From: an uncultured Kordiimonas sp.
Lineage (GTDB): Bacteria > Pseudomonadota > Alphaproteobacteria > Sphingomonadales > Kordiimonadaceae
DNA length: 64,000 bases
Assembly (NCBI GenBank): GCA_947500295.1
Contig: CANMRM010000001.1
Span: forward strand, 620,001-684,000
Direction of reading: 5' to 3'
The notes below the pieces were generated by a model that was not told the origin of the DNA, searched no databases, and was given only the letters and a program-made list of their open reading frames with translations. Every line of letters starts with the position of its first letter. The stretch's first letter is position 1. Positions 9,522-48,729 of the stretch are shown here, one piece after another. The position numbers and the translations under genes were made by a program.

Positions 9522-12119
9522 ATGAGCGACGAAAAGAAATTAACATTGTCCGGCCGCGGCACTCTTGGCGTTGGAAAGGGTGTAGAAACCGGTCAGGTTC
9601 GTCAGAACTTCAGTCATGGTCGCAGCAAAGCGGTTGTGGTGGAGCGCAAGAAGAAGCGCGTCCTTCACAAAGGCGGTGCAGCAGAACCTGCTGCTGCAGC
9701 TCCATCGCCTCAATCGCCCAAAGCGTATGTGCCCAAGAAGCCAGTTGCTGATGCTGGTCACAACCTCACGGACGCTGAGCTGGAAAACCGTCAGCGCGTG
9801 CTCGATGAAGCGAAGAAGCGGGCGGAAGAGGATGCCAAACGCCAGGCTGCCCTCGAAGCTGAGCGCAAGCGCCGCGAAGAAGTGGAAGCGAAAAACCGCG
9901 ACGCGGAAGAAGAAGCTCGCCAGCTCGCTGAAGAAGATGCCAAAAAACATGCTGAGGCTGTTGCCAAGGAAAAAGCCGAGGCGGAAGCCGCGCAGAAAGC
10001 TGCTGATGAACAAGCGGCCCGCGAAAAAGCGGAGGCTGAAGCCCGTCAGAAAGCAGAGCTTGAAGCGCGCGCTGTGCAGCTGCGGAAAGCCAGTGAGGCG
10101 CGTACGACCACCAGTACGCCTAGCACAGATGCTGACCGCACCGGCAAGCCAAAACGCAAGGACAAGAAGGGCGGAGCCCAAGACCGTAATCAGCGTGGTC
10201 GTGGCCGTGGTGAAGACCGTGGTCGTCGGGGTCGTTTGACAATTTCTACAGCAACAGCTGGCGATGAGCGTCAACGTTCTCTGGCGGCATACAAACGCGC
10301 GCAGGCGAAGAAACGTGCCGCGGAAATGGGCGGCGGTTCACAGCCGCAACAGCGCCAGTCACGTGAAATTACCGTGCCAGAGGCAATCTCGGTTCAGGAG
10401 CTTGCCCAGCGGATGGCAGAAAAAGCGACGGCTGTGATGAAAGCCCTGATGAATATGGGCATGATGGCTACCATCAACGATACGCTCGATCAGGACACCG
10501 CGCAGCTGATTGTTGAGGAGTTTGGACACACAATCAAACGCGTGAGCGAATCAGATGTGGAAATCGGTCTTGTCGGTGACGAAGACACCGATTCTGACCT
10601 GCAGTCTCGGGCTCCGATTGTTACCGTGATGGGCCATGTGGACCACGGCAAAACCTCGCTTCTGGACGCATTGAGGAGCGCCAATGTGGTGTCTGGCGAA
10701 GCCGGTGGCATCACGCAGCACATTGGTGCCTATCAGGTTGCCGTGGATGGCGGGGACAAGATCACGTTCCTCGATACACCCGGCCACGCCGCGTTTACCC
10801 AGATGCGGGCTCGCGGCGCCAGCGTGACCGATATCGTTATTCTTGTGGTGGCAGCAGATGACGGTGTGATGCCGCAGACCATTGAAGCCATCAATCATTC
10901 CAAGGCTGCTGGCGTGCCGATGATTGTAGCCATTAACAAGATGGACCGTGAGGGCGCCGACCCGCAGCGCGTGCGCAACGAGCTGCTTCAACATGAAGTG
11001 GTGCTGGAAACGTTCCAGGGTGACACGCAGGAAGTGGAAGTCTCCGCGATCACAGGTATGGGTCTGGATAAACTGAAGGAAGCCATTGCGCTTCAGGCAG
11101 AAATTCTTGAGCTGAAAGCCAACCCGAACCGTGCTGCTGAAGGCGTTGTTGTCGAGGCCAAACTTGACAAGGGCCGCGGGCCGGTTGCAACGGTTCTCGT
11201 CCAGCGTGGCACATTGCGCGTCGGCGATATCTTTGTTGCAGGGGCCGAGTGGGGCCGTGTGCGTGCGCTTGTCAATGACAAGGGCAGCCAGGTCAAGGAA
11301 GCGGGCCCAAGCCAGCCGGTTGAGGTGCTGGGGCTGAACGGTGCCCCGGGTGCAGGCGACGACTTTGCTGTCGTTGAAAATGAAGCTCGGGCTCGTGAAG
11401 TTGCAGATTACCGTCAGGATCAGGCGCGCAAGAAGCGCCAGGCGGCAACAGCGGCACCGAAGACGCTTGAAAGCATCTTCTCAAACCTCAAGGAAACAGA
11501 AGGCCTGCAAACCTTTGATGTGGTTGTGAAGGCAGACGTCCAGGGTTCGGTCGAAGCGATTACACAAGCGCTGGAGAAGGCTGGAAACGAAGATATCCAG
11601 TGTCGGGTAATCCACGGCGCAGTTGGCGGTATTACCGAAGCGGATATCACACTTGCAAATGCTTCCACGGCCCTTGTGATCGGCTTCAATGTGAGACCCA
11701 ACAAGCAGGCTCGAGATGCGGCGGAAGCTGAAGGGATCACCATCAAATACTATTCGATCATCTATGACCTGATCGATGAAGTGAAAGCAGCGATGGCCGG
11801 ACAGCTTGGACCAGAATTCAAAGAGAACGTCGTGGGCCGTGCCGACATCAAGGAAGCGTTCCAGGCTGGCAAAGCCGGGAAAGCGGCTGGTTGTATGGTT
11901 GTCGAAGGGTCCATTCGCAATGATCTCAAAGCCCGTATCCTGCGCGACGATGTCATCATCTACGAAGGCCAGATCGATAACCTGCGCCGTTTCAAGGATG
12001 ACGTTAAGAAAGTTGACGCCGGTCAGGAATGTGGCTTGACCTTTGAAAATTACCATGACTTCAAGGCAGGGGATGTTCTTGAAGTGTATGAGCTTGAGGA
12101 GATCGAGCGCGTCCTCTAG
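9522..12119 (+). CDS. infB: Translation initiation factor IF-2
   Basis: IF-2 is the GTPase that places initiator tRNA on the 30S subunit. The 865-residue protein has an IF2_N domain at the start ([11 protein letters not shown]), a long low-complexity linker rich in Ala, Glu and Lys (residues ~75–260), a second IF2_N domain (~285–345; [19 protein letters not shown]), the G domain with G1 GHVDHGKTS near residue 370, DTPGHAAF and NKMD, then domains II–IV ([25 protein letters not shown]). The Gly/Arg-rich stretch near 220–245 is typical of alphaproteobacterial IF-2. The GAGGAA upstream supports the ATG. Confidence 0.98.
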
Positions 12120-12163
12120 GGCGCGTTCGCTATCCTGCGGCATCAGCTACTGAGAGCAGTATC

Positions 12164-12583
12164 ATGTCCAGACGAGAGCACACCACAGGTGGGCCGAGCC
12201 TGCGCCTTTTGCGGGTCGGCGAAAATGTGCGCCACGCTATTTCTGCGATCCTGACCCGGGGCGATGTACAGGACCCTGACCTGGACGGGGCCCCTGTTAC
12301 CGTTTCGGAAGTGCGTGTCAGCCCGGATCTCCGGAATGCAACCGTTTTTGTCATGCCGCTTGGCGGGGACGAAGGCGGCGTTATCACGAAGGCACTCAAC
12401 AAAAACAGTGCGTTTATTCGTGGTGAAATGAGCAAGGTTGTGCATATGAAATATATGCCGCGCCTGAAGTTCAAGATTGATGAAAGCTTCGATGAGGCAA
12501 GTCATATCGACGCCCTTTTGAAGAATCCAAAGGTTCAGCGTGACCTCGGGGCAGCAGGCGACTCTTCGGAGGATGACATCTGA
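12164..12583 (+). CDS. rbfA: Ribosome-binding factor A
   Basis: RbfA binds the 30S subunit and assists 16S rRNA maturation, notably in the cold. The 139-residue protein contains VGENVRHAISAIL, VSEVRVSPDLRNATVFVMPL and the KH-like core ending YMPRLKFKIDESFDEASHIDALL, all family signatures. It starts with SRREHTTGGPSLRLLRVG. Its stop codon overlaps the truB start by one base (TGATG), pointing to translational coupling. Confidence 0.95.
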   Translation: MSRREHTTGGPSLRLLRVGENVRHAISAILTRGDVQDPDLDGAPVTVSEVRVSPDLRNATVFVMPLGGDEGGVITKALNKNSAFIRGEMSKVVHMKYMPRLKFKIDESFDEASHIDALLKNPKVQRDLGAAGDSSEDDI

Positions 12584-38387: not shown

Positions 38388-40190
38388 ATGACTGACCAGA
38401 CACATATCCGCAATTTCTCGATCATTGCCCACATCGACCACGGCAAGTCCACGCTTGCAGACCGCATGATCCAGACCACTGGCGCGCTCTCCGATCGGGA
38501 GATGCAGGAGCAGGTGCTCGACAACATGGATATCGAGCGCGAGCGCGGTATCACCATCAAGGCACAGACCGTCCGGCTTGAGTATAAAGCCAAAGACGGC
38601 GAGAAGTATGTGCTGAACCTCATGGACACGCCGGGCCACGTGGACTTCGCCTATGAAGTCAGCCGGTGTCTCAGCGCCTGCGAAGGGTCGCTCCTCATTG
38701 TGGACGCAAGTCAGGGTGTTGAGGCGCAGACGCTCGCCAATGTGTATCAGGCGATCGACAACGACCATGAGATCGTGCCGGTCCTCAACAAGATCGACCT
38801 GCCCGCCGCAGAGCCGGAACGCGTGCGCACCCAGATCGAGGATGTGATTGGCATTGACGCCTCAGACGCCATTGAATGCTCAGCCAAGTCAGGCATCGGC
38901 ATTCAGGATGTTCTTGAGGCGGTGGTGACAAAACTGCCGCCGCCTGAGGGCGACCCAAATGCGCCGCTGAAGGCACTTTTGGTCGACAGCTGGTATGATG
39001 CCTATCTGGGCGTGATGGTTCTGGTGCGGGTGATCGACGGCACCCTGAAGAAGGGCCAGCAGATCAAAATGATGGCCGCTGACAGCGAACATCAGGTGGA
39101 GCGCGTGGGTGTGTTTACACCCAAAGGCGTGCAGGTGCCTGCCCTTGGGCCGGGCGAGGTTGGTTTCCTGACCGCCAGTATCAAGGAAGTGGCGGACACA
39201 AACGTTGGTGACACCATCACGGACGCCAAAAAGCCCTGTGCTGAGGCGCTGCCGGGCTTCAAGCCCAGTCAGTCTGTGGTGTTCTGTGGCCTGTTCCCGG
39301 CTGACACATCCGAGTATGAGCAGCTGAAGGAAGCGCTCGCCAAGTTGCGGCTCAATGACGCCAGTTTCGAGTTTGAGACCGAAAGCTCTACGGCGCTTGG
39401 TTTCGGCTTCCGCTGCGGTTTCCTTGGCATGTTGCATCTGGAAATTATCCAGGAACGCATCACCCGCGAGTTTGATATCGAGCTCATCACCACCAGCCCG
39501 AGTGTGATATACAAAATCCACATGACCAACGGCGAGGTGCTTGAGCTGCACAACCCGGCTGACATGCCGGATGTGGTGCGGGTGGACCATATTGAAGAGC
39601 CCTGGATCAACGCCACCATTCTGGTGCCGGACGAGCATTTGGGTACGGTGCTGAAACTGTGCGAAGACAAGCGCGGTATCCAGCAGGATCTGACCTATGT
39701 GGGCGCGCGCGCGATGCTCAAGTACAAGCTGCCGCTCAACGAAGTTGTGTATGATTTTTATGACCGGCTGAAGTCGGTCAGCCGGGGCTACGCCAGCTTT
39801 GACTATGAAATGTCAGGCTATGAGCAGTCTGATCTTGTCAAAATGTCGATCCTCGTAAACGCTGAACCCGTGGATGCGCTATCGATGCTGGTGCACCGCA
39901 CGCAGGCTGACAGCCGGGGCCGGGCGCTGTGTGAACGTCTCAAGGACCTGATCCCGCGCCAGCTCTTCAAAATTCCGATTCAGGCCGCGATTGGCGGTAA
40001 GGTGATCGCCCGTGAAACCATTTCCGCCATGCGTAAGGATGTGACGGCCAAATGTTATGGCGGTGACGTAACGCGGAAGAAAAAGCTTCTCGAGAAGCAG
40101 AAAAAGGGCAAGGCCAAGATGCGCATGTACGGCAAGGTGGAAATTCCACACAGCGCCTTCATCGCCGCCCTGAAGATGCGCGAAAACTAG
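38388..40190 (+). CDS. lepA: Elongation factor 4 (LepA)
   Basis: LepA/EF4 is a translational GTPase that acts on stalled or assembling ribosomes. The 600-residue protein has the G domain ([14 protein letters not shown] near residue 15, [18 protein letters not shown]), domain II, and the LepA-specific C-terminal domain ending [20 protein letters not shown] then [15 protein letters not shown]. Its last 144 bp (40047–40190) are duplicated in a frameshifted copy at 41899–42043. The protein itself looks intact. Confidence 0.97.
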
Positions 40191-40230
40191 ACGCGGGAAC
40201 CGGACCTCAATCAGCTTCTGGTTCCCGTGT
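40191..40230. terminator. Possible bidirectional hairpin after lepA
   Basis: ACGCGGGAACC (40191–40201) can pair with GGTTCCCGTGT (40220–40230) with one G·U across an 18-nt loop, overlapping the 3' end of the convergent XRE gene. There is no clear T run, so termination is uncertain. Confidence 0.3.
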
Positions 40231-40644
40231 TACCTTTGCAACGGTTTTGGCAAGATGGCTTGCAAGAGCCGCCCCCCATATAAGGCCGACGACGCCGATG
40301 ATTTCCTGATCGATCGCAAAATACTGCTGGAGGACAAGCAGCCAGGTTATCACACCCATGAAAATGACGGTATGCAGCATGAAACTGCGCCAATCCTTGA
40401 CGGTTTCCTTGAAGCTTGTATCGTCTTGCATCTGAGCTGCCCTGCCAGTCTGGTCTGACGAGAGCTTGTTTTTCAACTCTTCAACGGAAACACCGAACCC
40501 GGCAGCGAGCGCCTTCAGCGTTTCCATGCTGGGCGGATTGCCGTTTTCGATGCGCTGGATAGTTCGCGTGCTGACACCCGAAATTTCTGCCAGCTGGTCC
40601 TGTGACCAGTTATGTTCCAGCCTGACTTTTTTCAGGTCCATCAT
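40207..40644 (-). CDS. XRE-family regulator with C-terminal membrane segments
   Basis: A 145-residue protein with an N-terminal HTH_3 domain (LKKVRLEHNWSQDQLAEISGVSTRTIQRIENG, residues ~3–60) and two hydrophobic helices in the C-terminal half (MLHTVIFMGVITWLLVLQQYF and IIGVVGLIWGAALASHL), similar to 2TM-type XRE proteins. It may be a membrane-tethered regulator. AGGA precedes the ATG. It lies between lepA and the CPBP gene, inside the segment bounded by the two lepA 3' ends. Confidence 0.82.
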   Translation of the reverse strand: MMDLKKVRLEHNWSQDQLAEISGVSTRTIQRIENGNPPSMETLKALAAGFGVSVEELKNKLSSDQTGRAAQMQDDTSFKETVKDWRSFMLHTVIFMGVITWLLVLQQYFAIDQEIIGVVGLIWGAALASHLAKTVAKVTREPEAD

Positions 40645-40731
40645 GTGTCCTCAACAGAATTCGGCAAATCGGAAAAAGCGGCCCGTAGTTCCCCTGACAC
40701 CTTGCCACAGGCCGAGCTGCCAAGTGAAGGT

Positions 40732-41784
40732 TTATGTGCTGGTGGGAGAGGGTATATAACCCCTGTCTCGTCGCCAAGGTTTCAGGAATATGATCAGCGC
40801 AATCACGGTAAGCATCAGCAAGGGTACAAACAGCTCGCTGCCAGCGAACATGCGTACCTGTGTGTTGAAACAGGCATGCAGCAATACACAGAGGAAGATG
40901 GAGCCGCCGCTGGCGTTATAGACAAAGGTCATCAGGAAGGCGATGGGCAGGATGAAGATCATGCGGCCGATGAGCAGCGGGATCAGGTTCGGGTTGCCAT
41001 TAAGGAAATCAAGCGTGATGGGCAGGTGCCATGGCTCCCAAACAAGCGCGATGATGAGCGTGGCGGTAAGCGGGCTGAACCGCTGTTGCAGAATAGGCAG
41101 AAGCACACCGCGCCAGCCGTGTTCCTCGTTCCCGCCGGTGAGCATGGCAACCGTGAACAGCTTCACAGCCATCAGCGGTAACCATGTGGAGGTGGGCAGT
41201 TGCAGATGCTCTGGTTGCTCGTATGGCAGACCGGTGAGGGTGGCAATCAGGTTCGCGCCAAAAAGGATGGTGGGCAGGAACAACAAGAGCGGCACAGCGA
41301 GCAGGAGTGTGCGCCTGTTTGGCACCAGCCCGCGATAGAAGGCTCGGATGGTGGGCGCACTGTTCTGTACGTTTGAGAAGACAAAACCGGAGGTGAACAC
41401 CACCAGCCCCATCAGGCCATAGACATACCAGGGGGAATGGGCCGGGAAGGTGATGTCATCCTTCGGTGCCATCTCGGTGACGCCGAGCAGGTTGACCTGA
41501 AACATGGCAATTGCGGCCACAGCGAACAGCGCGCCCACGGCGAAACCGGTGCCGAACACCGGCTTTAGGGAAAGCGCATTTTCCCGCAACCTGAGGAGTA
41601 TGCTGCCCGCCATCGCCGGGCCGAACACGCCCATGAAGGTTAACGCCATTTTCATGCCCGGCGGCAGGTTTTCGATATGGATCGGGACCCAGAAAGACCA
41701 GGACCAGATATAGGTCATGATGATGAACAGAAGGACTGGGTGGTTTTGTGCCAGTTTCCTCAAGGGGTTTGTGTTTGAAAGCAT
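40732..41784 (-). CDS. CPBP-family intramembrane metalloprotease
   Basis: A 350-residue membrane protein with about eight helices. The CPBP (Abi/CaaX-type) signatures are the GGNEEHGWRGVLLPIL motif (Glu-Glu...Arg, near residues 215–230) and the later His in ALVWEPWHLPITL. Members process membrane or prenylated proteins or act in bacteriocin immunity; the target is unknown. A run of phased GACAG repeats lies 68–115 bp upstream. It runs in the same direction as, and 87 bp before, the XRE gene, so both may be one operon. Confidence 0.85.
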   Translation of the reverse strand: MLSNTNPLRKLAQNHPVLLFIIMTYIWSWSFWVPIHIENLPPGMKMALTFMGVFGPAMAGSILLRLRENALSLKPVFGTGFAVGALFAVAAIAMFQVNLLGVTEMAPKDDITFPAHSPWYVYGLMGLVVFTSGFVFSNVQNSAPTIRAFYRGLVPNRRTLLLAVPLLLFLPTILFGANLIATLTGLPYEQPEHLQLPTSTWLPLMAVKLFTVAMLTGGNEEHGWRGVLLPILQQRFSPLTATLIIALVWEPWHLPITLDFLNGNPNLIPLLIGRMIFILPIAFLMTFVYNASGGSIFLCVLLHACFNTQVRMFAGSELFVPLLMLTVIALIIFLKPWRRDRGYIPSPTST

Positions 41785-41851
41785 TTTTGTTTCCTCGCGT
41801 GTCTTTTATTTTGTTTCGGGCTCGCTAACACGGGCGGGAGTGAAAACACAC

Positions 41852-41899
41852 GACAGGGAAGTGACAGGCACCCGACAGATGGCAGACAGGACCGGACAG
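41852..41899. repeat. Five GACAG direct repeats in helical phase
   Basis: ACAG occurs at 41853, 41864, 41875, 41886 and 41896, each preceded by G, with spacings of 11, 11, 11 and 10 bp. The regular turn-of-helix spacing suggests cooperative binding of a regulator on one DNA face, upstream of the CPBP gene on the minus strand (CTGTC in that orientation). Confidence 0.65.
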
Positions 41900-42043
41900 C
41901 CAAATGTTGTGGCGGCGATGTGACGCGCAAGGAAAAGCTTCTGGAAAAGCAGAAGAAGGGCAAGGCGCAAGCCGCACAGGTATGGCAAGGTGGAAATTCC
42001 ACACAGCGCCTTCATCGCCGCCTGCAAAATGCGCGTGACCTAA
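41899..42043 (+). pseudogene. lepA: Frameshifted copy of the lepA 3' end
   Basis: Codons here read [20 protein letters not shown], matching [20 protein letters not shown] of lepA, then the frame is lost. The first 69 nt differ from lepA at 10 positions, mostly synonymous. After a scrambled ~15-nt middle there is a 39-bp identical block (41984–42022 versus 40131–40169), then small indels before TAA. It is not expressed as LepA and probably marks an integration or duplication junction. Confidence 0.85.
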
Positions 42044-43063: not shown

Positions 43064-43948
43064 ATGTACATTCAGGATATCATCGATCAGATCGCCGCAA
43101 TGGCCTTGGAAAAAGGCGCTTCAGACCTGCCGTTTGACACGGCGGTGCCCGGGCTTTCTTGTCTCCATGTGAAAAAACTGACGGCAATTCAGGCGATCCT
43201 CTATCAACCATCTCTATGCCTGATTCTACAGGGCGCCAAAGAAACACACATGGGAGACCATAGGCAGTTTCTGTCTGCGGGACAGGCCGTGATTGTCAGC
43301 CACATGGTGCCAGTGGTGTCACAGGTAGTGTTGGCCAGCCCTAGTGAACCCTATGTGGCGGTTGTTCTGGAGCTTGATTTGGCGCTTGTGCGCAGCCTGA
43401 TTGACGGAGTCCCGCAAAAGGGGTTGTCAGCTGAGGCTCAGACGGTGAGCGCTGCGCCGGTTGATGCGGCGCTTCTGGACGCCATGGGTCGTCTGTTCCT
43501 GTTGCACAACAAGCCTGAAGAAAGGGCGGTGATGGCTCCTCTGATCAAGAAAGAAATCCACTTTCGTCTCTTGATGGCGGCGCACGGCGGCAGCCTGCGA
43601 GCCCTGCTTGACCGCAGCAGTCATGCCAGCCGGATAGCGAGCGCAATTGAGCGCATCAAGAGGGATTTTGCGCAGACACTTTCTGTCACTAACCTGGCGG
43701 AGGTTGCTGGCATGAGCACATCGTCGTTTCATGTACGTTTCAAAGCGGTCACTGCGAAAACGCCGCTTCAATTTCAGAAAGACATGCGATTGATGGAAGC
43801 GCAGCGGCTACTCAATGCCGGCGGGCACAATGTGTCTGCTGCGGCGTTTGAAGTGGGCTATGAAAGCCCAACCCAGTTCAGTCGGGAATATGCTCGCAAG
43901 TTCGGGGTGTCGCCCAAGGCGGACCGGTTGGCAGTGCCTGCGCCTTAA
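43064..43948 (+). CDS. AraC-family transcriptional regulator
   Basis: A 294-residue regulator with an AraC_N (PF06719-like) N-terminal domain (ILYQPSLCLILQGAKETHMG, then VSHMVPVVSQV) and a C-terminal pair of HTH motifs (LSVTNLAEVAGMSTSSFHVRFKAVT and VSAAAFEVGYESPTQFSREYARKFG). Regulators of this type often control the divergent oxidoreductase gene, here the SDR. In-frame starts at 43046 (GTG) and 43058 are alternatives. It overlaps the 3' end of the convergent LysR gene by 4 bp. Confidence 0.87.
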   Translation: MYIQDIIDQIAAMALEKGASDLPFDTAVPGLSCLHVKKLTAIQAILYQPSLCLILQGAKETHMGDHRQFLSAGQAVIVSHMVPVVSQVVLASPSEPYVAVVLELDLALVRSLIDGVPQKGLSAEAQTVSAAPVDAALLDAMGRLFLLHNKPEERAVMAPLIKKEIHFRLLMAAHGGSLRALLDRSSHASRIASAIERIKRDFAQTLSVTNLAEVAGMSTSSFHVRFKAVTAKTPLQFQKDMRLMEAQRLLNAGGHNVSAAAFEVGYESPTQFSREYARKFGVSPKADRLAVPAP

Positions 43949-44859
43949 CAAACCTCTATTCCTTCGATAGAAGATACAGCTGCTGCCATATGGTCGATAA
44001 ACAGTTTCAGGCGTTTTGGTTGCCATTTTGACGGCAGATAGGCGGCATTGAGCTTGAGTGCCGCGGCACGCCAGTCAGGCAGGAGGTCAACAAGAGTACC
44101 GCTTGCGAGATCTTCTTCGACAAACCAGCGTGGCATGACGGCAAAGCCAAGGCCATTTCGAGCCGCCAGACGTGCGGAGAAGATGTTGTTTGTTGTGAGG
44201 GAGGCTTGAGCCTTTACGGTCGCTCGTTCGCCATCGCGTGCGGTGAGGCCGATGGTGGTGCCTTCAAAAGCCGATAGCGATACGCATGGAATATCGCAAA
44301 CACTTTCCGGTCCTTCAGGAAATTGTTCAGCGAGCAATGACGGAGCAGCGACCAAAAGCCGTTCAATATTACCAATCGGGCGCGCAATCAGGGTGTCGTC
44401 TGTAGGTTTGCCGACGCGAATCCATAAGTCCGCCCCCATTTCCGCAAAGCGGATTTCATCGTCATCCAAAAGCCATGTCAGCGCCACGCCAGGATATTGA
44501 GCTTGAAATGAAACGGCCGCAGTTGCCATTCGAGTCTGGCCCAATGCGACCGGCGCGAAGACTTTCAGCGCACCTTCGACTTTACCCCTGTCGGTTTTGT
44601 GGGTTTCTTCAAACTGATCCCATCCCGCAAGCAGGGTTTTTGCATCCGCCAGACAGGCTTTGCCAGCCGCTGTCAGGCTGAGCGTGTGAGTGGTGCGCCG
44701 AACAAGGTCTGAACCAAGCCGGGCCTCAAGGTCCGCGAGTTGCCGACTGGCGGATGCTTGTGAAAGACCAAGGTCCCGTGCTGCAGCGGAAATCGAACCT
44801 CTTTCTGCAATGCGAGTGAAGGTGGTTAGCAGTGTCAGGCGGTCAAGGCTTTTGCTCAT
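43945..44859 (-). CDS. LysR-family transcriptional regulator
   Basis: A 304-residue LysR regulator with the N-terminal winged HTH (TFTRIAERGSISAAARDLGLSQASASRQLADLEARLG in parts) and a LysR substrate-binding domain (VFAPVALGQTRMATAAVSF, WIRVGKPTDDTLIARPIG). It is divergent from an aldo-keto reductase gene 104 bp away, the usual arrangement for control of that gene. A palindrome overlaps its own start codon. An in-frame start 18 nt upstream is possible. Confidence 0.88.
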   Translation of the reverse strand: MSKSLDRLTLLTTFTRIAERGSISAAARDLGLSQASASRQLADLEARLGSDLVRRTTHTLSLTAAGKACLADAKTLLAGWDQFEETHKTDRGKVEGALKVFAPVALGQTRMATAAVSFQAQYPGVALTWLLDDDEIRFAEMGADLWIRVGKPTDDTLIARPIGNIERLLVAAPSLLAEQFPEGPESVCDIPCVSLSAFEGTTIGLTARDGERATVKAQASLTTNNIFSARLAARNGLGFAVMPRWFVEEDLASGTLVDLLPDWRAAALKLNAAYLPSKWQPKRLKLFIDHMAAAVSSIEGIEVC

Positions 44860-44872
44860 ACGTAATACGTAT
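44858..44872. promoter_or_regulatory. 15-bp inverted repeat overlapping the LysR start codon
   Basis: ATACGTA and TACGTAT are perfect arms around one A; the block covers the ATG of the LysR gene and extends into the divergent promoter region. It fits the T-N11-A symmetry of LysR sites. Confidence 0.5.
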
Positions 44873-44963
44873 AGCAAAAACTCGTGTCAGCCGTCTACCA
44901 AGTATAGGACAATTCGCTCATCTTGGCTTCAACAGACCACCCAACTCAGATGGAGCAAGAAAG

Positions 44964-45728
44964 ATGAAACAGACATTCAAAATCGGCGGAAACCTTGAAG
45001 TGAACCGGCTTGGCTATGGTGCCATGCGCCTTACCGGCCAGCCGGGCAATTTCGGGCCCTATGAGAATTGGGACCAGGGCATTGCGCTGGTTCGACGTGC
45101 CTACGAACTGGGCGTAGCGTTTTTTGATAGTGCCTGGGCCTATGGACCGGAACATGCGGATCGACTGGTCGGCGAAGCCCTGGAAGGATTGCCGGCGGTT
45201 ATTGCGACCAAAGGTGGTGTCGACAAACCGGCGCCAGGCAATATTGTCGTGGATGGCTCACGCGACGCATTGTTACGACAAATCGACCAAGCACTGGTCA
45301 ACCTGCGTGTTGATCAAATCGATCTGTTTCAATTGCATCGGGTTGACCCTAACACAGACATCGAAGTTTCCATTGAAGCGCTTGCTGAGGCTGAAGCAGA
45401 TGGCCGCATCCGGCACATCGGCCTTTCCAACGTCAGCCGAGACGGTTTGGACCGTGCTCTGAAGGTCGCACCGATCGCAAGTGTTCAGAATCGTTTTAAT
45501 AGTGCGGAGAGCGCTGACGCTGCTCTAGTGGATTACACCGCCTCGCTTGGCATCGCCTACATTCCATATGGTCCACTGGGCGCCCATCCCATGCAGCAAG
45601 GGGCGAAACTTGCACCCGCAGATGCACTGCGCTGGTTGCTTGAGCGCTCTCCCAACATCGTCGTTATTCCAGGCACAACGTCGATTGCTCACCTGGAAGA
45701 CAACATGACGGCTCTCCAGGTTGCATAA
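44964..45728 (+). CDS. Aldo/keto reductase
   Basis: A 254-residue AKR, slightly short for the superfamily. The start is LGYGAMRLTGQPG, then AYELGVAFFDSAWAYGP (catalytic Asp and Tyr), VIATKGGV (catalytic Lys), DLFQLHRVD (catalytic His), IRHIGLSNVS and a C-terminal cofactor region (IVVIPGTTSIAHLEDN). GAGCAAGAAAG lies before the ATG. It is divergent from the LysR gene and followed 32 bp later by a glyoxalase-fold gene, so a LysR-controlled two-gene unit is likely. Confidence 0.9.
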   Translation: MKQTFKIGGNLEVNRLGYGAMRLTGQPGNFGPYENWDQGIALVRRAYELGVAFFDSAWAYGPEHADRLVGEALEGLPAVIATKGGVDKPAPGNIVVDGSRDALLRQIDQALVNLRVDQIDLFQLHRVDPNTDIEVSIEALAEAEADGRIRHIGLSNVSRDGLDRALKVAPIASVQNRFNSAESADAALVDYTASLGIAYIPYGPLGAHPMQQGAKLAPADALRWLLERSPNIVVIPGTTSIAHLEDNMTALQVA

Positions 45729-45760
45729 TTCCTCAAAGCAAAAAAAGAAAGGACCTCTCA

Positions 45761-48343: not shown

Positions 48344-48560
48344 TTGGAATCTGACGAATGAATGAAGCCATCTCCTGGTTCCACCAACAGGGTGTTTGGT
48401 GCCGAGGCGGCGAACTTTGAGCGCACAAACAGGGGCGTCTCGTCATTTTTACGTTGAAAAAATACCAAATAGTCCCGTTTTTTTACCTTTTTTTAACGCT
48501 GCAGGATTAAAACTGGGATTGTTGATACAGCTTATTAGCTCCCTTGATCTGACTGTGTCC

Positions 48561-48604
48561 AGCGGAACCGCCCCTTCTCCCCCGATAGCGGTTCCGCTTT
48601 TTTG
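48561..48604 (+). terminator. Unassigned intrinsic terminator
   Basis: AGCGGAACCGC (48561–48571) pairs perfectly with GCGGTTCCGCT (48588–48598), followed by six T residues. No plus-strand gene ends nearby. Confidence 0.8.
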
Positions 48605-48729
48605 TGGGAAAGCGCTGCCACGAAATGACTACTCTTTCCTTGCATCCGGTGTGCTGTTTCCTTTTAAATACGCTGAAGTCTGCGTGCGGGGTCGGACGAG
48701 CCTGGATCAGGTGTCACATCAGGGATAAC

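Follow-up and report, generated by a model that had tools for sequence, protein, structure and literature searches.

Why does the 3′ end of lepA, the gene for elongation factor 4, occur twice in the window, a 64,000-nucleotide stretch of the genome of an uncultured Kordiimonas sp. (assembly GCA_947500295.1, contig CANMRM010000001.1, positions 620,001 to 684,000)? One copy belongs to the intact gene; the other lies beyond a 1.7-kb segment that encodes an XRE-type regulator and a CPBP membrane protease. A first-pass annotation had read the second copy as the likely scar of an integrative element, with simple duplication as the alternative. Having compared the locus with lepA loci of other genomes, we put the chance at about even that the second tail was left behind when a small fragment was imported by homology-anchored, RecA-type recombination; the fragment would have carried a foreign lepA 3′ end together with the XRE-CPBP genes. 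The features on which the argument rests are as follows.

38388–40190, + strand: lepA (elongation factor 4), intact, 600 amino acids; open reading frame (ORF) with congener LepA matches
40047–40190, + strand: intact copy of the duplicated lepA tail
40131–40169, + strand: 39-nt block in the intact tail, identical to 41984–42022; possible crossover zone
40207–40644, − strand: XRE-type regulator, insert gene (Pfam HTH_3, 5e-18)
40732–41784, − strand: CPBP/Rce1-like membrane protease, insert gene, upstream of the XRE gene on the same strand (Pfam PF02517, 2.5e-13)
41899–42042, + strand: second lepA tail, frameshifted; alignment from 41888
41984–42022, + strand: 39-nt identical block in the second tail

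Congener LepA proteins, where listed as full length, are 85 to 95% identical to the LepA of the window. Searched against the whole genome, the lepA tail gave just two strong matches (E values of 3e-76 and 2e-40), and a looser limit added a third at E 0.09, which is chance level. The repeat aligns in two gap-free parts, 79 and 75 nt long (40036–40114 with 41888–41966, and 40115–40189 with 41968–42042), each at 84% identity, and the second tail is out of frame through single-base indels, one near 41967 and a pair near 42020. These alignments confirmed the frameshifted recurrence of about 144 nt of lepA that the annotation had described, as well as its 39-bp identical block. Its statement that the differences before the block are mostly synonymous held by a narrow count: 14 of 84 sites to the left of the block differ, and 8 of the 14, barely a majority, fall at third-codon positions (8 of the 28 such sites). 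The 39-nt identity is itself mildly unusual, as runs of at least 38 nt arose in 4% of random mismatch placements (P = 0.04) and runs of at least 37 nt were present in 4 of 78 lepA pairs of similar identity. With divergence on its flanks, as we looked for under a single crossover, the block would be compatible with a crossover inside it. The contents of the segment were also as annotated: Pfam matches to HTH_3 and an Rce1-like family identified the XRE and CPBP genes, and neither the ORFs nor the Pfam matches of the 1.7 kb included an integrase.

We measured how far the lepA stop lies from a conserved downstream element in 29 loci, the window included (the survey omits G022, whose lepA is split over contigs, and G009 has no intact lepA match).

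48464–48608, + strand: conserved element marking the far edge of the variable region

The two are separated by just 83 to 380 bp in 17 of the 29 loci, that is, the site is empty. The distance is 0.57 to 12.9 kb in nine loci (8.3 kb in the window), and the element was not found in the remaining three of the 29. Because empty and occupied sites both occur, the region 3′ of lepA takes up DNA in some lineages. The comparison with relatives that the annotation had proposed thus produced the sites without the 1.7-kb segment. Since relatives have empty sites and other genomes have different inserts with tail copies, the XRE-CPBP segment looks, from this comparison, like an insertion at the lepA 3′ end that left lepA intact, much as the annotation had supposed.

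The tail copies elsewhere were found with a LepA C-terminus pattern (at most one mismatch), which matched 162 of the 396 genomes of the order. Two or more matches were present in 11 of the 162, and in six of these they formed close pairs on one strand: G000 (the genome of the window), its congeners G003 and G018, and G121, G154 and G234 of another family (f5). The window's genome was grouped in one genus with G001–G018. None of the 11 genomes had a long-range pair on one contig and strand. Two further copies came from 74 named-genome lepA loci (L079–L157, minus L081 and loci with short flanks), namely L116, from a Phyllobacteriaceae metagenome-assembled genome (MAG), and L120, from a Devosia MAG; both hosts belong to Rhizobiales. 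The total is eight events, listed here with the insert size (lepA stop to copy start) and the position at which the copy starts, counted back from the lepA end.

G000: insert 1697 bp; copy starts at 155 nt (~144 nt without its weakly similar start)
G018: insert 1778 bp; copy starts at 58 nt
G003: insert 1138 bp; copy starts at 39 nt
G121: insert 727 bp; copy starts at 83 nt
G154: insert 433 bp (465 bp with a stricter match); copy starts at ~273 nt
G234: insert 53 bp; copy starts at 228 nt
L116: insert 449 bp; copy starts at 65 nt
L120: insert 798 bp; copy starts at 222 nt

The right ends of all eight copies lie within 10 nt of the lepA end, and the left edges are scattered from 39 to ~273 nt before it, a spread of more than 200 nt. 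The cargo amounts to one or two ordinary genes and differs between genomes. The G121 insert has a gene that is RadC-like by eye, and L120 carries OsmC; in G154 and L116 a DUF2283 gene stands behind a small gene (DUF4258 in L116, without a Pfam match in G154). In G003, lepA is followed by a gene with a hydrolase-like match that falls short of the Pfam cut-off and then by the 39-nt copy, identical at 37 of 39 positions to the genome's own lepA tail. The DNA directly 3′ of lepA in G018 holds a LysR and aldo-keto reductase (AKR) gene pair, which a 42-nt lepA-tail match immediately follows; a second, weaker lepA-like piece (57 nt, 75%) lies 4.4 kb further on. No gene and no junction is common to all eight events, and no integrase was found among the ORFs or profile matches of the eight inserts. 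As the tail alone is copied and the inserts differ between genomes, simple duplication of the neighbourhood, the alternative named in the annotation, is unlikely.

Two of the other events gave a closer view of the junctions. The LysR-AKR DNA of G018 has a counterpart in the window, further downstream of lepA.

43945–45728, mixed strands: LysR (−) and aldo-keto reductase (+) pair, with a DNA match to G018
45727–45739, + strand: flank of the AKR gene, AATTCCTCAAAGC, similar to the tail of lepA and site of the G018 junction (microhomology, by eye)

Over 1764 bp (window 43976–45739; L035 3807–5570) the window and G018 share 96.9% identity in this DNA, compared with 83.9% in lepA, and judging from these identities the cassette is one that moved between the two lineages by recent horizontal transfer. 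The G018 copy starts where the AKR flank, which is uncut in the window, resembles lepA by eye, and the junction looks like one of microhomology. Codon usage in the intact lepA of G234 is host-like up to about codon 517–521 and foreign from there on, over the last ~80 codons; third-position GC is 0.60 to 0.64 in this tail, against 0.76 to 1.0 in earlier intervals of the gene. The native tail resumes at codon 525–526, with a short shared word only and no shared core, and a few codons were lost at the junction. The foreign tail nevertheless equals the displaced native tail at 71 aligned residues. Unlike the G018 junction, that of the window shows no clear microhomology. For the window itself, we compared both tails with those of relatives. 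Where the two tails differ at third-codon positions before the block, G018 agrees with the second copy seven times and with the intact copy once; over all 14 differing sites it is divided 7 to 7, and six other relatives have no clear lean toward either tail.

We favour homology-anchored import because of the variable left edges, the small, ordinary cargo and the texture of the junctions. By this route an imported fragment would recombine with the resident lepA tail in one of two ways. A circularised fragment could enter through one crossover, which would leave intact lepA, the cargo and a partial lepA tail; or homology could join one end, with the other attached inside lepA through microhomology (homology-facilitated illegitimate recombination). 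Either way, lepA would stay intact, the extra tail would decay and a recombinase of the element's own would be unnecessary. Natural transformation or conjugation is the vehicle that we infer, as is the recombination route itself. The anatomy of the window would fit a single-crossover partial duplication, and we count in favour of this explanation a tail-only copy at a gene other than lepA (L101, below). According to PMC3240628, single crossovers of incoming circles in Escherichia coli give partial gene-end duplications of 109 to 950 bp and are commoner than illegitimate entry, and most homology-facilitated illegitimate events of competent species have 3 to 10 bp of microhomology. A gene transfer agent was rejected as the vehicle, as PF09343, which marks RcGTA-type agents, was absent from 19 of 19 genus genomes (the window's included); it was present in 1 of 14 controls.

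Several observations weigh against this explanation. A step in composition within lepA was seen in G234 alone; the other six profiles, that of the window's genome included, show none. The tree of the tails, run as the annotation had proposed, was weakly supported, and its use to date the copies was dropped. Blocks that resemble attachment cores (30 nt in L116, 65 nt in G154 and 39 nt in G000) are predicted by an attachment model too. In PMC3240628, moreover, illegitimate entry is very rare in E. coli, with homology absent at three of four junctions, and the authors doubt that the illegitimate route explains natural variable loci in that species.

The frequency of tail copies at lepA counts on the same side, since general recombination does not predict an enrichment there. 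Copies were present at lepA in 6 of 162 genomes and at guaA in 1 of 385 (Fisher P = 0.003; leaving out the window's genome raises this to 0.010, and leaving out the three Kordiimonas cases known beforehand to 0.077). The single guaA case (G167, L198) is a 34-nt, 97% identical tail copy around an insert of ~450 nt. At the named-genome loci, the counts were 2 of 74 for lepA and 1 of 1256 for other genes (Fisher P = 0.009, or 0.017 and 0.04 if two or four control genes are counted). All loci at hand gave 6 of 89 lepA genes against one clear tail-only copy among the 1256 other genes (L101); the 89 include several loci chosen for having a copy and G023 twice (L040, L079), and the six are an undercount, as the lepA genes of G121 and G154 gave no row despite their copies, probably through loss in ORF picking. 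Matches were obtained for 18 of the non-lepA genes, most of them judged from coordinates and those at L149, L092 and L088 from the gene's own protein; L052, with three genes, resembles a duplicated gene cluster (one copy inspected). At L101, the gene at 11068–12378 (− strand) is followed 2.4 kb downstream by a tail-only copy of 259 nt at 95% identity. A class-wide scan (385 genomes), for which the pattern was ill-chosen and matched 11 genomes, was not used. Because the tests were chosen after the data were seen, a preference of tail copies for lepA is suggestive only. Since the copies look more frequent at lepA, a lepA-specific recombinase is possible.

The chief competitor, which we regard as doubtful although well short of negligible, is site-specific integration: the segment would be what is left of an integrative element, or a cis-mobilizable element dependent on an integrase supplied in trans. 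The 39-nt block would then be the attachment core, with attL in the intact lepA and attR in the second tail. The intact lepA and the direct repeats are as this reading expects, and the identical runs in G000 (39 nt), L116 (30 nt, the leftmost part of the copy) and G154 (65 nt) meet or overlap ~55 to 60 nt before the lepA end. The apparent enrichment at lepA would also suit it, although the P value weakens without the cases known beforehand, as would the 34-nt guaA copy around a small insert, guaA being a known integration site of elements. lepA is likewise a prophage site in Salmonella, as described in PMC5502288. The integrase itself was looked for in two ways. In the 18 genus genomes with lepA (the window's included), the 20 kb that follow lepA, as far as the contigs reach, contain no Phage_integrase matches. 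A profile built from eight genus integrases, which is narrow and could miss distant recombinases, found three integrases in 128 lepA loci (120 of which, the window apart, have the lepA 3′ end and at least 500 nt after it; a few genomes are in twice). Two of the three follow a tRNA-Ser(GGA) gene and the third is 7 kb off among genes that are phage-like by eye; no profile-matched integrase adjoins a tail copy in the 128 loci, serine recombinases not having been searched for. The integrase-bearing elements that the annotation would have had end in this core were therefore not encountered beside any tail copy. All eight inserts are shorter than 2 kb, and the scan of the order gave no long-range pairs. 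Nor is there a constant core across independent insertions: the left edges range over more than 200 nt, the identical runs lie at differing positions, and at the place of attR in G234 the expected core is missing. The varying junctions could still come from several elements, each with a core of its own. The annotation had compared GTGGAA-A-TTCCAC with a tyrosine-recombinase core. The motif is indeed present in both window tails, but it is absent from all other 28 full-length lepA tails compared, and its spacer of 1 nt makes it unfit for such a core, in which the spacer is 6 to 8 nt; as it is not conserved, we rejected it. Seven viral-contig pattern matches, none of them to lepA, likewise fail to support the integrative element. 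Taken together, the lack of integrases beside the copies, the scattered left edges, the palindrome confined to this genome, the microhomology-like junction of G018 and the G234 junction weaken the reading as an integrative remnant.

A specialised, undescribed lepA-targeting system, guided by a nuclease or recombinase, could insert one- or two-gene cassettes together with a foreign tail that restores the gene. Gene-sized cargo, the apparent enrichment, the recurrence of a DUF2283 gene behind a small gene in two lineages (L116 and G154) and the foreign G234 tail, whose 71 aligned residues equal those of the native tail, would all be in keeping with it. No gene or junction is shared by the eight events, however, and we give such a system little weight. 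In its broader form, the lepA 3′ end would be the target of a widespread, undescribed alphaproteobacterial system that inserts integrase-less cassettes (XRE-CPBP, LysR-AKR, the DUF4258/DUF2283 pair, the RadC-like gene) with a foreign tail, by a recombinase or nuclease in trans; this, too, is improbable. For a local duplication of the lepA tail in this lineage, with no imported DNA, the chance is slim. The G003 copy, identical to its own tail at 37 of 39 positions, is what one would expect of it, but the window's tails differ at 8 of 28 third-codon sites left of the block, more than a recent copy under selection would show, and the empty sites and differing inserts of relatives point to imported DNA. 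Homology-anchored import remains the explanation that we prefer.

As to its source, the XRE-CPBP segment equals the window in GC content (55.6% versus 55.0%). Its two genes recur elsewhere in the genomes of G012 and G016, in the same order and at ~49 to 53% amino acid identity, and therefore probably form an operon. A plasmid source was rejected: 35 plasmid records match, none over more than 80% of the segment, and the 20 among the matches listed cover 6 to 7% of it, in HTH genes (one unannotated). A phage origin was set aside as well, as the seven viral-contig pattern matches yielded no lepA match. The LepA C-terminus matches 15 phage and 60 plasmid records; among the matches listed (15 phage, 40 plasmid) the annotated features are lepA, and many are unannotated. 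Beyond the segment, the window continues with SDR, AraC, LysR, AKR and VOC genes. Within the conserved downstream element, a ~95-nt intergenic stretch (48515–48608, + strand) is conserved in 20 loci that were aligned because they had a match, and stands close after lepA in unoccupied genomes. It has two predicted hairpins with C-rich loops and a T run after the second, with slight covariation support (1 of 23 pairs) and no match in an Rfam search; these features resemble those of an unannotated small RNA and its terminator. Separately, integrases lie directly after tRNA-Ser(GGA) genes close downstream of lepA at L151 (12430–13871) and L085 (12599–14532).

A displaced, diverged gene tail around small cargo is a signature that may show the entry of genes or operons without mobile-element machinery, and lepA offers a place to measure such entry; a genuine preference for lepA would imply a targeting mechanism that is new. 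Our literature searches on lepA and integration, with most subscription papers outside their coverage, found no lepA-tail scars in Alphaproteobacteria. Several known systems invite comparison. A cis-mobilizable element is an integrase-less segment bounded by attL and attR. The window likewise has direct repeats of a gene 3′ end around integrase-less cargo, with a putative attL/attR function; in contrast, no integrase-bearing parent at lepA was found and the junctions vary, and any mobility here is putative. Elements at guaA share with our loci the restored target gene and the direct repeats, and differ in their fixed core and element-borne integrase, both missing here. The same likeness and difference apply to the integrative elements that occur in the 3′ end of rbgA (PMC8571831). 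The Salmonella prophages share the target gene itself, but in PMC5502288 those lepA insertions are prophages, mostly with integrases, whereas ours are gene-sized and without integrase genes. Homology-facilitated illegitimate recombination and single-crossover entry, as set out in PMC3240628, have in common with these loci the partial duplication of a gene end, small cargo, no recombinase of their own and, in G018, apparent microhomology; they were described from laboratory selection, whereas the events reported here are natural and recur at one gene.

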